Part shown: positions 4,637 to 49,873 of the stretch, in pieces
Numbering within the stretch: position 1 is the stretch's first letter
Layout: each line of letters starts with the position of its first letter
From: Natrinema longum
GTDB taxonomy: Archaea > Halobacteriota > Halobacteria > Halobacteriales > Natrialbaceae
Reading direction: 5' to 3'
Length of the DNA: 64,000 nt
NCBI RefSeq assembly: GCF_017352095.1
Contig: NZ_CP071463.1
Span: 124,001-188,000 of the forward strand
The notes under the pieces: generated by a model
The model's input: only the letters and a program-made list of their open reading frames with translations
The model's database searches: none
Told to the model about the DNA's origin: nothing
Position numbers and translations under genes: made by a program

Positions 4637-5680
4637 TCAAGTCACGGAATAGATACACTCGAGATAGGTCTCCCGGACGCGGTCGCCCCAGTTGTGGGTG
4701 TACGTATCGATGACGTCGCCGGCGACATCGCCTCGGAGGTACTGGACGATCCCTCGATCACCGGTTCGGTCCCGAAGATGGGTCGTGAAGAAGTGCCGGA
4801 AGTAGTGGGGCGTGACGTTCTCCTGGGTGCCACCGCCGGTCCGGTACCAGCCGCGCTCTCGAGCGTGTTTCTCGACGATATAGCGCACGTCCGAGGGCGT
4901 GAGCCGCTGGCCCCACGAATCGCGGGTGTCGAGAAAGAGCGGTCGTGCCCCCGAGACCGTATCCGGCCGGATGGCCAGCCACTCGAGGAGCACACGCCGC
5001 AGTTCGGCATCGATCGGAACCACCGTCTCCCGCTTTCGCTTGTTCGAGGCTGCCCGCTCTTCGCCGTTGACGATCGTGCCACGAGCGGGCTTCGACGAAA
5101 CGAACAGCGACGACGGCCGGCGCTCGAGACCGACGCGGGCCGTCCATTCGAGGTCGAGCTCCGGTGTCTCGAGGTGAAGATCCTGCAGATCGAGGTTGCA
5201 GAGTTCGCCGACACGCATCCCGGTTTTCAGCAGCGTAACGACGACGGCCCGCTCGAGGGGATGTGCGATGGAGTCGACGAACGATCGCATTTCCTCGACC
5301 GAGATGTCCCGTCGCGTCGGGTTCGTCTCGATCGATTCGGACATCTCCTCCATGACGAGGGCCATCGGATTGTCGTCGAAGACGCCGACACGAGTCATGT
5401 AGTCGTAGAATCGGTTGAGATACGAGGCGTAGGTCGCGATCGTGCTGGATTCGAACGCCCCGCGCAGCGAGTGAATCCAGGCCATACACTCCCGCCGTTG
5501 GGCCGCGCCGACCGCCGCCACGTCGAAGCGCTCGTCGAGGAACGCCTCGAACTGCCGGAGGACGCGTTCGTAGGCCTCGAGCGTCCGTTCGCTCTTCCCG
5601 TGATAGCGCTGGTCGTCGAGGAAGTATTCGATTGGATCCGTCACGTCCGAGGGCGCGTCGGCTCCGGGCTCAGTCGCCAT
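4637..5680 (-). CDS. Tyrosine recombinase (XerC/D-like integrase)
   Basis: The 347-residue protein has an N-terminal SAM-like core-binding domain (residues 15-105) and a catalytic domain. Visible catalytic residues are Arg156 (TGMRVGEL), a Lys near 215-220, His292-x-x-Arg295 (HYFRHFF) and Tyr327 (DTYTHN). The usual LGH motif is changed to LRGD. The start at 5680 (MATEPG) is chosen because the ORF upstream of it overlaps the preceding gene; the two overlap by only 11 bp from here, implying co-translation. It may be a housekeeping haloarchaeal recombinase or a remnant integrase; no phage or conjugation genes flank it. Confidence 0.9.
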   Translation of the reverse strand: MATEPGADAPSDVTDPIEYFLDDQRYHGKSERTLEAYERVLRQFEAFLDERFDVAAVGAAQRRECMAWIHSLRGAFESSTIATYASYLNRFYDYMTRVGVFDDNPMALVMEEMSESIETNPTRRDISVEEMRSFVDSIAHPLERAVVVTLLKTGMRVGELCNLDLQDLHLETPELDLEWTARVGLERRPSSLFVSSKPARGTIVNGEERAASNKRKRETVVPIDAELRRVLLEWLAIRPDTVSGARPLFLDTRDSWGQRLTPSDVRYIVEKHARERGWYRTGGGTQENVTPHYFRHFFTTHLRDRTGDRGIVQYLRGDVAGDVIDTYTHNWGDRVRETYLECIYSVT

Positions 5681-35436: not shown

Positions 35437-36198
35437 TCAGTCTTCGGCCGGCCGTTCCGTCGCCCGGCGGAGGAGACCCAACAGCGTGTTCGCCTCGCGT
35501 TCCGTCAGATCGGCCCGGCCGTACACGCGGCGGAGCATGCGCATCGTCTTGTCGCGTTTCTCCTCGGGATGATTGATCTCCTCGAGGAGCGCGGCCCACT
35601 GATCGTACAGGCGGTCGACCGTCCGTTCGGGGGCCCGAACGCGCTCTACGTCGGGGAGTTGTGTCTCCTCGAGCGTCAGCGACCGGAGTTCGTAGAGCGT
35701 GACGGTGGCGGCCTGTCCGAGGTTGAGCACCGGATAGTCGGCGCTGGCGGGAATCGAGCAGATCTCGTCGATCCGGGCGAGTTCCTCGTTGGTCAGCCCG
35801 ACGCGTTCGCGGCCGAAGACGAGTGCGGTCGGTGCCTCGACGGTCGGGAGCCGCTCGGCCAGATCGGCGGGCGTCGAGTAGGGAAACCGCATGTGGCTGC
35901 GATCGTCCTCGTTCGTCACTGCCGTACAGCCGATCGTGTGGTACGCGTCGGCGAGTCGATCGAACTCGATCTCCTCGGCGTTCGGGAGGACGTCCTCTCG
36001 AGCGTGGCCGGCGAACCCGTATGCCTCGCCGTCGGGGTCGAGGTCGGGCGGATCGACGAGCAGGAGATCCGTGAAGCCGAAGTTCTTCATCGCGCGGGCG
36101 ATGGTGCCGACGTTGCCGGGCGATTGCGCGTCGACGACGGCAACGGCTGGGGCCGTTCGACTCGTGACGCCATCGGTCTCGGACGAGTCGTCGCTCAT
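35437..36198 (-). CDS. SpoU/TrmJ-type tRNA methyltransferase
   Basis: The 253-residue protein has all SPOUT motifs: motif 1 NVGTIARAMKNFG (about residue 29), motif 2 ALVFGRERVGLTNEEL (about 125), motif 3 YPVLNLGQAATVTLYEL (about 155), with the trefoil-knot fold. This set resembles TrmJ, the 2'-O-methyltransferase for tRNA position 32. A C-terminal helical extension (residues 195-253) is also TrmJ-like. It uses S-adenosylmethionine. The start is at the left border of the large origin spacer. Confidence 0.9.
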   Translation of the reverse strand: MSDDSSETDGVTSRTAPAVAVVDAQSPGNVGTIARAMKNFGFTDLLLVDPPDLDPDGEAYGFAGHAREDVLPNAEEIEFDRLADAYHTIGCTAVTNEDDRSHMRFPYSTPADLAERLPTVEAPTALVFGRERVGLTNEELARIDEICSIPASADYPVLNLGQAATVTLYELRSLTLEETQLPDVERVRAPERTVDRLYDQWAALLEEINHPEEKRDKTMRMLRRVYGRADLTEREANTLLGLLRRATERPAED

Positions 36199-36393
36199 TG
36201 GGTTTTCGACGGGATCGAGAGTCGGTGCGTGTCGGTTCGCGTGTCGTCGGTTCGATGTCGACGCCGTCGATAGCGATCAGCCGGGACGGGGACGACGTGA
36301 TGGAGATCGTTCATAACGGGAGTGCAGAGCGGGAGCGCAAAAAAGAGCGCGTTCGGCGGCTGCATCGTTCTTTGTAACTGTCTTGTTCGTGAT

Positions 36394-36448
36394 CTAGTAT
36401 ATAGATACTAGAACGTTACTAGACTAGAACTAAACTAGTCTAGACTAG
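36394..36448. repeat. CTAG cluster with 14-bp palindrome
   Basis: Seven CTAG tetramers occur in 55 bp (first bases at 36394, 36408, 36419, 36424, 36435, 36440, 36445). The last three form a perfect 14-bp palindrome ctagtctagactag (36435-36448). CTAG is normally rare in haloarchaeal DNA. The segment is AT-rich and lies at the left of the origin repeats, so it may act as unwinding element or protein-binding site. Confidence 0.7.
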
Positions 36449-36560
36449 ATCTCCAGATCTTACCACGGGTCAAAGCGAGTCACGGACCGACGGCGGAGAC
36501 GGATTTCTGGACCGTCGTCGCACTGGGTTCGGTGACATCGGCCGGGTGGGTAGGGGAGAC

Positions 36561-36581
36561 ACACCCCCGTCGCGTTTGTAA
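36561..36581 (-). repeat. ORB-like element 1
   Basis: On the minus strand the element has TTACA, a CGCGAC core and a five-G run followed by TGT. It is the exact inverted copy of element 3 (36707-36727): all 21 bases match. Confidence 0.85.
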
Positions 36582-36614
36582 GCCGAACTACGTGTGGGGC
36601 CTCTGTTTCACAAC

Positions 36615-36635
36615 ACACCCGTCCCGCGGATGTAA
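36615..36635 (-). repeat. ORB-like element 2 (weaker)
   Basis: Minus-strand element with TTACATCCGCG and a shorter G run (three Gs) before TGT. Same length and orientation as element 1, 33 bp further right. Confidence 0.6.
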
Positions 36636-36687: not shown

Positions 36688-36727
36688 CACCCCCGTCCTT
36701 TCACCGTTACAAACGCGACGGGGGTGT
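36688..36727 (+). repeat. ORB-like element 3 with opposing G-string
   Basis: The plus-strand ORB occupies 36707-36727. Immediately left, cacccccgtc (36688-36697) is the exact inverse of gacgggggtg (36717-36726), giving 10-bp arms separated by 19 bp. This makes a symmetric Orc1-binding-like site in the centre of the origin. Confidence 0.8.
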
Positions 36728-36877
36728 GCCCCCATCCGGGAGCACCGAACCAGTCGCTGGCCGCATTCTCGAGTCGGTTTACGCCGACTTCGTGGAAGCG
36801 AGCCCTCGGTGACGGAACGAGCGGCCGATCCGAGTATCGGACACCACAACCGTCCGACCGGCCCGAACAGGGGGAAC

Positions 36878-36898
36878 TTACATCCGCGATGGGGGTGT
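36878..36898 (+). repeat. ORB-like element 4
   Basis: Plus-strand element TTACATCCGCGATGGGGGTGT, matching element 3 at 18 of 21 positions, with the full five-G run. Confidence 0.8.
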
Positions 36899-37148: not shown

Positions 37149-38378
37149 ATGTCCGCCAACGACGATCGAGACCCGCTCTTTCGGTACGACGATCCGGTCT
37201 TCGCCGACGAGCGCCTGCTCGAGATCACGCACCTGCCCGGTCCGGATCGGATCGTCGGTCGTGACGAGCAGATGCAACGGGTTGCGGACGCCCTGAACCC
37301 GGCGATCTTCGGGAGCGAACCCAACCACCTGTTTATCTTCGGCAAGACCGGAACCGGCAAATCGCTCATCTCGCGATCGGTCACCCAGCGGGTGATCACC
37401 GAGGCCGAGCACGACGATATCACGGTCAAGTACGCCTTCATCGACTGTGGCGAACAGAACACGGAAGCCTCCATCGTCAAGACGATCGCCCAGATCGTCA
37501 ACGAACCCGACGCGAGCGGGGTCACCGTCCCCGATCGGGGCCTCGGAACCGGTGACTACTACAAGCGCCTCTGGCAGGCTATCGATCACTGTACCGACGT
37601 CACCATCGTCATCTTGGACGAGATCGACATGCTCGAGGACGACGAAGTACTCCGCAAGCTCTCTCGAGCCGGCGAGAACCGACGGATTTCCGACTCGAGT
37701 ATCGGTATCATCGGCATCTCGAACAAGATCGACTTCCCGGACCACCTCTCCGAACGCGTCAAGTCGAGCCTCTCGCGGGACGAACTCGTCTTCTCGCCGT
37801 ACGATGCCAACCAACTCGTCGAGATCCTCGAGAAGCGCCGCGACGCCTTCCACGACGGCGTCCTCTCCGACGACGTCATCCCGCTGACCGCCGCCCTCGC
37901 CGCCCAGGAACACGGCGACGCGCGCAAGGCGATCGACATCCTCCGGAACGCGGGTCGCATCGCGAAGAAGCGAAACGACACGCGGGTCACCGCGGATCAC
38001 GTCCGTGACGCCAAGGAGAAGACCGAGGCCGACCGGTTCAACGAGTTGATCGAGGGCTCTCCCCAGCAGGCCAAGGCGATCCTCTACTCGCTGACGATCC
38101 TGACCGAAAACAGCTCCGAAAAGGAGTTCCCCACGAAGATCATCTACAACCAGTACAAGGAGGTCGCCCGCCGGCTCGATTTCGACGTGCTCTCCGAGCG
38201 CCGCGTTCAGGAGATCCTTCAGGAACAGAACTTCCTCAACGTCATCCAGTCCGAGCGCGAGGGACGTGGCCGCGGTCGCGGCGCACACGCGAAACACCGG
38301 CTGCTCGAGAACCCCTCGATCGTCAAGAAGGTCCTCCTGCGGGATTCCCGGTTGGCCGTCCTCGAGGACGAGGGGTGA
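37149..38378 (+). CDS. orc1: Orc1/Cdc6 replication initiator
   Basis: The 409-residue AAA+ protein has Walker A GKTGTGKS (residues 65-72), Walker B VILDEIDML (about 155-163), sensor 1 IIGISNKIDF, sensor 2 region GDARKAIDILRNAG, and a C-terminal winged helix (about 300-409). It binds ORB elements to start replication. It is adjacent to ORB repeats on its 5' side, which marks it as the cognate initiator of this origin. Full length and typical for haloarchaeal Orc1 proteins. Confidence 0.95.
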   Translation: MSANDDRDPLFRYDDPVFADERLLEITHLPGPDRIVGRDEQMQRVADALNPAIFGSEPNHLFIFGKTGTGKSLISRSVTQRVITEAEHDDITVKYAFIDCGEQNTEASIVKTIAQIVNEPDASGVTVPDRGLGTGDYYKRLWQAIDHCTDVTIVILDEIDMLEDDEVLRKLSRAGENRRISDSSIGIIGISNKIDFPDHLSERVKSSLSRDELVFSPYDANQLVEILEKRRDAFHDGVLSDDVIPLTAALAAQEHGDARKAIDILRNAGRIAKKRNDTRVTADHVRDAKEKTEADRFNELIEGSPQQAKAILYSLTILTENSSEKEFPTKIIYNQYKEVARRLDFDVLSERRVQEILQEQNFLNVIQSEREGRGRGRGAHAKHRLLENPSIVKKVLLRDSRLAVLEDEG

Positions 38379-48830: not shown

Positions 48831-49873
48831 CAGTACATCCCTCCTTCGGTGTCGCGGAAGAGTAGCACGTAGCCGCCGATGATCAAGCCGATCACGAGCG
48901 CCGTGGCGAAGGCCACGGCGGCGGCCGTCGCGTAGATGCGGGTCCCGCCGAACATCGCTTCGACGACGAGACAGCTCAGCGAGGGAACGGTCGTACAGCC
49001 GGCAGTCGACTCGATCAGTCCGAAGACTCGCATCGCGTCCATGGTTCGGAACAGCATCGCGACCAACAGGGCCGGCATCACCAGCGGGAGCGTGATCATC
49101 TTGAACCGCTGCCACGGTGACGCACCGGCCACGCGAGCGACGTCGTACAGACTCCGGTCAACGCTCTGGAGTCCTGCGAGGATCAACAGAGCCATGAACG
49201 CCGACGACTTCCAGATGTCGGCCACGAGAATGATGATGAACGCGTCGCGGCTGTTAGCCAGCGGCGTTCCGCTGAAGATGCCGATGCTCTGCATGAGGTC
49301 GGACCCGAACCCGACCGTCGGCTGGAACAGCAGGAAGAAGATCATTCCCTGAATGACGATCGGCACTGCCCACGGGAGAATGATCGCTACGCGGACCCAG
49401 CGACGCCCCGTGAACTCCTGATCGAGCACGTAGGCCTGGCCGAACCCGATCACCGTCTCGAAGATGACGCTGATGACCGCGAAGGCGAGCGTGACGAACA
49501 GCGCCTGCTGGAAGAACGGGGTCCCGAGTTCGATGAACGGGAACGACGACGTCAGCCCGACGTCGAGGAACTGTCGAGCCAGTCGCGCGTTCCCGGTGAG
49601 GATGTCGACGTAGTTCTCGATGCCGACGAAGCCGCCAAGGGGGTCGAGTCCCCGCGTCTCGTTGGCGCGAAGCGACATGACGAACGTCCGTAGCATCGGA
49701 TAGAACGCGATCAGCGTCAGCAACGCGAACGCCGGCAATAACAGCAGGTACGCGTATGCCGCCTCGCTCAGCCCCTCCATCCAGTTGACGACGGCGTTAC
49801 CGGTCCGTTCACGGTCTCGTTCCCGGCCGGACTCGCCGCCGATCAAACCGTCCGTATCGGTATCAGTTGCCAT
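48830..49873 (-). CDS. Sugar ABC transporter permease (MalF-like)
   Basis: The 347-residue protein has six membrane helices and the EAA motif DVARVAGASPWQRFKMITLPLVMPAL. A 30-residue Gly/Arg-rich hydrophilic N-terminus precedes the first helix. The start at 49873 overlaps the end of the binding-protein gene by 11 bp, a tight operon. A loop with TTVPSLSCLVVEAM near the C-terminal third holds two cysteines. Confidence 0.93.
   Translation of the reverse strand: MATDTDTDGLIGGESGRERDRERTGNAVVNWMEGLSEAAYAYLLLLPAFALLTLIAFYPMLRTFVMSLRANETRGLDPLGGFVGIENYVDILTGNARLARQFLDVGLTSSFPFIELGTPFFQQALFVTLAFAVISVIFETVIGFGQAYVLDQEFTGRRWVRVAIILPWAVPIVIQGMIFFLLFQPTVGFGSDLMQSIGIFSGTPLANSRDAFIIILVADIWKSSAFMALLILAGLQSVDRSLYDVARVAGASPWQRFKMITLPLVMPALLVAMLFRTMDAMRVFGLIESTAGCTTVPSLSCLVVEAMFGGTRIYATAAAVAFATALVIGLIIGGYVLLFRDTEGGMY

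Follow-up and report, generated by a model that had tools for sequence, protein, structure and literature searches.

A conserved cluster of CTAG sites in the candidate unwinding segment of a predicted replication origin of Natrinema longum

Clusters of CTAG sites close to replication initiator genes have been described in Haloarchaea. According to the available part of Blow et al. (2016; PMC4752239), conserved CTAG clusters lie upstream of orc1/cdc6 genes, their occurrence correlates with that of an orphan m4C methylase, and they were proposed to act in replication control. In the same text the haloarchaeal motif is written m4CATG in the body and CTAG in the legend of Figure 6, of which CTAG suits the later papers. 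In Haloferax volcanii, which carries the CTAG methyltransferase HVO_0794, an elevated density of CTAG is seen around oriC2 alone, where GATC is elevated as well, and a strain from which the CTAG methylase had been deleted with other RM genes had no growth defect, as far as the accessible sections of Ouellette et al. (2018) describe it. The role of haloarchaeal CTAG methylation is described as open in the available portion of Fullmer et al. (2019), and the partly accessible literature on CTAG and archaeal origins yielded no further report of the cluster described here.

This cluster was found in a window of 64,000 nucleotides (the whole stretch of DNA that was analysed) of the Natrinema longum genome. 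Seven CTAG occupy the 55 bp from 36394 to 36448 (no strand), starting at 36394, 36408, 36419, 36424, 36435, 36440 and 36445 with successive spacings of 14, 11, 5, 11, 5 and 5 bp, exactly as the first-pass annotation had placed them. That annotation had also called CTAG depleted, as is usual in haloarchaeal DNA, and rightly so: the window contains 17 CTAG, whereas its dinucleotide shuffles contain 82.7 on average; seven of the 17 are inside the cluster and 10 outside. Given the outside-cluster rate, seven CTAG would fall within 55 bp with a probability of about 5e-19 (about 3e-14 over the window), and dinucleotide shuffles of the AT-rich segment 36360-36471 (112 bp) gave a mean of 1.7 CTAG, with at least seven in none of 20,000. 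Both the CTAG rate of the window and these shuffles therefore exclude chance for the cluster. A scan of the entire 3.59-Mb genome for three CTAG with gaps of at most 30 bp gave only four places, one of which is the window cluster, so that CTAG clusters are not common elsewhere in this genome; the window cluster is also the only one of the four that fits a strict pattern with gaps of at most 14 bp. The second CTAG-rich spot of the genome (G000:C1:1885749-1885855; L008, L193) holds seven CTAG in about 107 bp between transcription factor B-like and small GTPase-like genes, named from their translations, and no orc gene was found near it.

The first-pass annotation had emphasized that the cluster ends in a 14-bp perfect palindrome, CTAGTCTAGACTAG (36435-36448, no strand). 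The palindrome is exact, and it exists because three CTAG, spaced 5 bp apart, are separated by single-base spacers. Twenty perfect palindromes of this length or longer occur in the window, so that this one alone carries little meaning; the emphasis laid on it could not be upheld, and it was rejected as a signal.

The cluster sits in a 950-bp region between the divergent gene of a TrmJ/YjtD-family (SpoU) RNA methyltransferase (35437-36198, minus strand) and a gene of the orc1/cdc6 replication initiator family (37149-38378, plus strand, 409 aa). The stretch from the cluster to orc1/cdc6 contains ORB-like repeats that have G-rich ends, which leaves the cluster itself outside the ORB array. The outermost, with a G-string, is on the minus strand (36559-36582, start at 36559-36564) and is about 110 bp from the cluster, in agreement with the earlier statement that the cluster adjoins origin repeats; it is followed by a repeat on the same strand (36613-36635), by one on the plus strand that is inverted relative to the first two (36707-36728) and by another on the plus strand (36878-36898). 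The region was accordingly classed as a predicted origin, with G-string ORB repeats beside an orc/cdc6 gene. By nearest-neighbour energy, no other 100 bp of the 64-kb window are less stable than those at 36364-36463 (no strand); this candidate unwinding segment encloses the entire CTAG cluster, and the suggestion made beforehand of an unwinding element fits this position. The cumulative GC-skew curve of the window has no clear extreme at the origin, its maximum being at 49648. An RNA element was considered and rejected, with no Rfam match in L001, L006, L007 and L008.

The orthologous origin of Natrinema sp. J7 has been assayed on a plasmid. The ARS-5 primers of that strain have exact matches at 5008 and 7310 in L016 (a Natrinema gari record), where the pair spans the full intergenic region and the orc gene; L016 has four CTAG. 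In the available part of the J7 report, pFJ5, the plasmid with the orthologous origin, gave fewer than 10 transformants per microgram, and pFJ1, pFJ4 and pFJ6 gave about 2,000 per microgram each; autonomous replication from the pFJ5 fragment was weak at best in that assay.

Conservation of the cluster was followed in the loci recovered by one scan for the initiator (72 loci) and in 46 intergenic regions with the trmJ-orc arrangement, those of the window and of 45 loci. The cluster is not absent from close relatives: at least three CTAG per 100 bp were present within 3.5 kb upstream of the initiator gene in 45 of the 49 Natrialbaceae loci, family membership of named loci being taken from record titles and in part from general taxonomy, and the loci below this density were L041, which is cut off by a contig end, L048, L051 and L055. 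The 46 intergenic regions contain 306 CTAG in 50,896 bp versus 72 in 309,765 bp of flanks, and CTAG was their top palindromic tetramer (1.97-fold over block-wise dinucleotide shuffles) and second among all 256 tetramers. Windows of 100 bp whose AT was 60 or more had a mean of 4.5 CTAG in the origin region versus 0.08 elsewhere in the same loci. Outside the origin region, windows of these loci with AT of at least 50 had means of 0.08 to 0.18 CTAG depending on AT class, and none of the 361 had three or more; AT-richness alone is thus insufficient for a cluster. With the same initiator type outside the family (L060-L063 and L065-L069, of which L067 has merely 261 bp upstream of the initiator), only L063, one of nine, reached three CTAG in 100 bp.

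The sequence of the cluster has changed between relatives. The window was aligned with L013, a Natrinema ejinorense record (a genome whose methylase match is identical carries the same species label as the window): the ORB part aligned nearly unchanged, and the cluster showed several indels (loss of one 5-bp unit, gain of another unit, and 4 bp inserted or deleted), with seven CTAG in both. Over 43 segments with 250 CTAG, spacing was near random, and rigid spacing was rejected because the 5-bp distance was only mildly over-represented (41 observed vs 28 expected). All 126 ORB-like repeats in cluster-bearing intergenic regions were on the orc side of the cluster. Considering this turnover, the loose spacing and the constant side of the ORBs, we infer that the density and place of CTAG are conserved and the sequence is not, giving a motif cluster in non-coding DNA that is kept at orthologous places.

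The association with initiator genes was also recovered by a blind search for three CTAG with gaps of at most 14 bp in eight family genomes. Matches were merged into 28 distinct clusters, whose surroundings comprised 19 regions, four initiator-scan loci and five further clusters, the looser cluster of this genome being left out. Seventeen of the 28 were located at most 2 kb 5' of an orc/cdc6 gene, and these 17 involved several orc types on main and smaller contigs. This count includes two clusters, in G101 and G113, that were linked via contig ends (about 1439 and 1788 bp) on the assumption of circular contigs. In the blind counts as a whole, inside and outside the family, L221 and L241 (partial orc match beside the same CTAG triplet), L252 (orc on the other side) and L204 (nearest orc match weak and at 2.4 kb) were scored as unlinked. 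The triplet shared by L221 and L241 occurs once per strand in two genomes and is probably within an orc gene or its remnant. Clusters of at least four CTAG were orc-linked in 12 of 12 cases in the family, in 4 of 7 in methylase-bearing genomes of other families and in 2 of 3 in methylase-less genomes. In N. longum itself, one of the seven orc loci has a cluster and the six others have none. The earlier view that the cluster is selected and not random is well supported by its retention in relatives (45/49), by its rarity elsewhere in the genome and by the blind clusters at orc/cdc6 genes (17/28).

Several clusters at other initiator types deserve mention. Those of L189 (3459-3483), L190 (3614-3636) and L218 (770-788) stand beside the same initiator type, 70% identical to the orc of L191, and about 350 bp upstream of the orc gene in each, L189 and L190 being from methylase-bearing family genomes and L218 from a methylase-less genome; they may represent a shared secondary-replicon origin. 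L166, outside the family and with the methylase present, has a dense cluster of six CTAG in 100 bp, 881-995 bp upstream of orc.

A candidate enzyme for these sites is encoded in the same genome. An N6_N4_Mtase (PF01555) protein of 350 aa, at G000:C1:275166-276215, has 50% identity over 93% of its length to the methylase of pFZ1. The pFZ1 methylase, which we take to be M.MthZI, is encoded by a gene that adjoins an MjaI-family nuclease gene. M.MthZI is a 4mC CTAG methylase, as given in the available text of Ouellette et al. (2018). An RE_MjaI family search found no relative in N. longum, and the predicted CTAG methyltransferase is, judged by this absence, an orphan, that is, a cognate methylase whose cognate nuclease is missing when the nuclease is judged by the RE_MjaI family alone. 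Reports accessible in part record m4C at CTAG in Natrinema pallidum NMX15-1, by SMRT sequencing, and in Haloterrigena salifodinae, where 74.5% of 4,856 sites were detected. The proposal that the cluster is a methylation target is very likely correct, given the putative orphan CTAG methyltransferase and the m4C CTAG of N. pallidum NMX15-1. The methylase was present in all 50 tested genomes of the initiator-scan loci; among 212 genomes sampled from the class, 179 had it. A second N6_N4_Mtase-type protein (G000:C1:287636-288289; L093) is located about 12 kb from the CTAG methylase, and the genes beside it could be a restriction system.

The methylase and the clusters were loosely coupled outside the family, in a hand-picked sample that favoured few-contig genomes in its first sets and whose methylase-less part was all 20 genomes listed, of 33 methylase-less in the class draw. 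The 24 methylase-bearing genomes of other families had 32 clusters, 10 of them orc-linked, in seven genomes, leaving 17 genomes with no orc-linked cluster; the 20 methylase-less genomes had 16 clusters, three of them orc-linked, in three genomes and all on smaller contigs. For genomes with an orc-linked cluster, 7/24 vs 3/20 gave a Fisher p of 0.31, and on the largest contigs only, 4/24 vs 0/20 gave a p of 0.11, whereas the family (8/8, all tested genomes having the methylase) differed from the 7/24 outside it with a p of 0.0006, all three values being uncorrected for relatedness. Therefore, judging from the counts outside the family, the methylase is not sufficient for clusters and may not be required. 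As a sole cause it was rejected, since orc genes of one other family (mostly about 50% identical to the N. longum gene) lacked a dense cluster in either methylase group; in both groups the maximum was three sites per 100 bp. Membership of the family thus has a strong effect, and a methylase effect is unproven in this sample. These class-wide counts suggest that the methylase alone does not explain the clusters, which limits the meaning of the published correlation.

In this study, we concluded that the CTAG cluster is a genuine, conserved element of a predicted origin. It is probably a working part of this origin, perhaps methylation-controlled, because relatives keep the CTAG pack despite the changing sequence. 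From the observed cluster, its conservation and position, its link to orc genes and the presence of the methylase, we have proposed a tentative model, which we consider to have a little less than an even chance of being right: a selected CTAG array in the unwinding segment of an orc/cdc6-adjacent origin would provide methylation-sensitive control of initiation. A dense array, placed by selection in an easily melted AT-rich segment beside the ORB repeats, would be the substrate of the orphan m4C methyltransferase of the same genome, and the passage of the fork would leave it hemimethylated. The methylation state may then alter how easily the segment is bound, by a putative reader protein, or opened, and thereby affect initiation, in a manner that can be likened to that of the Dam sites at E. 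coli oriC. Several results weigh against this model: the loose methylase link outside the family, the six cluster-free orc loci of N. longum, the four Natrialbaceae loci below the density threshold, the few transformants obtained with pFJ5, and the unimpaired growth of H. volcanii after deletion of its CTAG methylase. A direct lowering of duplex stability by m4C was dropped from this model because the reports cited in the available part of PMC4477647 give no sign that N4-methylcytidine destabilises the duplex.

The alternative that survives best is that CTAG matters as sequence, as an unwinding element or as an array bound or kinked by an origin factor or Orc1/Cdc6, with methylation incidental; this is a serious possibility, although clearly short of an even chance. 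It would agree with several observations: the cluster occupies the stretch of lowest stability in the window, 43 of the 46 intergenic regions have CTAG inside their AT-richest 100 bp, 172 of the 250 cluster sites are bordered by A or T on both sides, and orc-linked clusters occur in three of the 20 methylase-less genomes, one of which, that of L218, matches those of L189 and L190 in distance and initiator type. However, melting alone needs no CTAG, and TTAA (0.22) and TATA (0.74) were depleted against block shuffles in the same 46 regions; a rigid period, beyond the mild 5-bp excess, is also missing, and the three methylase-less cases, being on smaller contigs, may derive from methylase-bearing hosts. 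It is improbable that the cluster belongs to a regulatory region for transcription of trmJ or orc1/cdc6 and is no replication element. Its location upstream of both genes, roughly 200 bp from trmJ and 700 bp from orc1/cdc6, would suit such a region, as would the CTAG enrichment upstream of genes in Haloferax lucertense described in a partly available source, but in G101 and G113 the cluster is on the 3' side of trmJ and still near an orc gene, and clusters also occur 5' of other orc gene types. That the cluster has no function and arose through AT-rich base composition, slippage in tandem or accident is very improbable. Close relatives do differ by the gain and loss of units of about 5 bp, a pattern expected of slippage, but AT-rich windows elsewhere in the same loci form no such cluster (0/361), 45 of the 49 loci retain its position, and 17 of the 28 blind clusters fall beside orc genes.

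Returning to methylation-sensitive control of initiation, a bolder version can be formulated, which we regard as rather unlikely: a Natrialbaceae origin switch would be gated by methylation, the hemimethylated CTAG array, read by a hypothetical archaeal protein, would itself be the unwinding segment and would time firing, and secondary replicons would use a like arrangement beside the orc genes that they encode. If this were true, replication of the different replicons in a cell could be linked through the host methylase. According to the accessible part of the J7 work, origin-plasmid vectors exist for Natrinema sp. J7. The compact conserved array, combined with these vectors, makes it possible to ask directly whether methylation times or licenses archaeal initiation.

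The nearest likeness in working is E. coli oriC, where GATC spacing is loose. If our reading is right, the two systems would be alike in having dense orphan-methylase sites at an origin (Dam GATC and SeqA in the available descriptions of oriC); they differ in that E. coli combines m6A at GATC with DnaA, whereas the system proposed here would combine m4C at CTAG with archaeal Orc1/Cdc6, and in that oriC has the reader SeqA, whereas no reader protein is known for the CTAG array. Like archaeal AT-rich unwinding regions, the segment described here is AT-rich, least stable and beside ORBs and an orc/cdc6 gene. In the standard archaeal origin, as given in partly available descriptions, ORBs flank the AT-rich region, whereas the ORBs detected here are all on one side, and the AT-rich segment of this origin, unlike the standard description, is rich in CTAG. 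The clusters in the accessible part of Blow et al. (2016; PMC4752239, Figure 6D) share with this one the motif, the kind of place and the methylase family, and the present cluster is a member of that published kind, the idea itself not being new. Whereas a correlation with the methylase was reported there, the link was weak in our sample outside the family. Beyond the available part of that account, the present analysis adds three points: the cluster occupies the least stable, candidate unwinding segment and lies outside the ORBs; its sites turn over while their density stays constant; and the methylase link is loose outside the family, with clusters present in methylase-less genomes.
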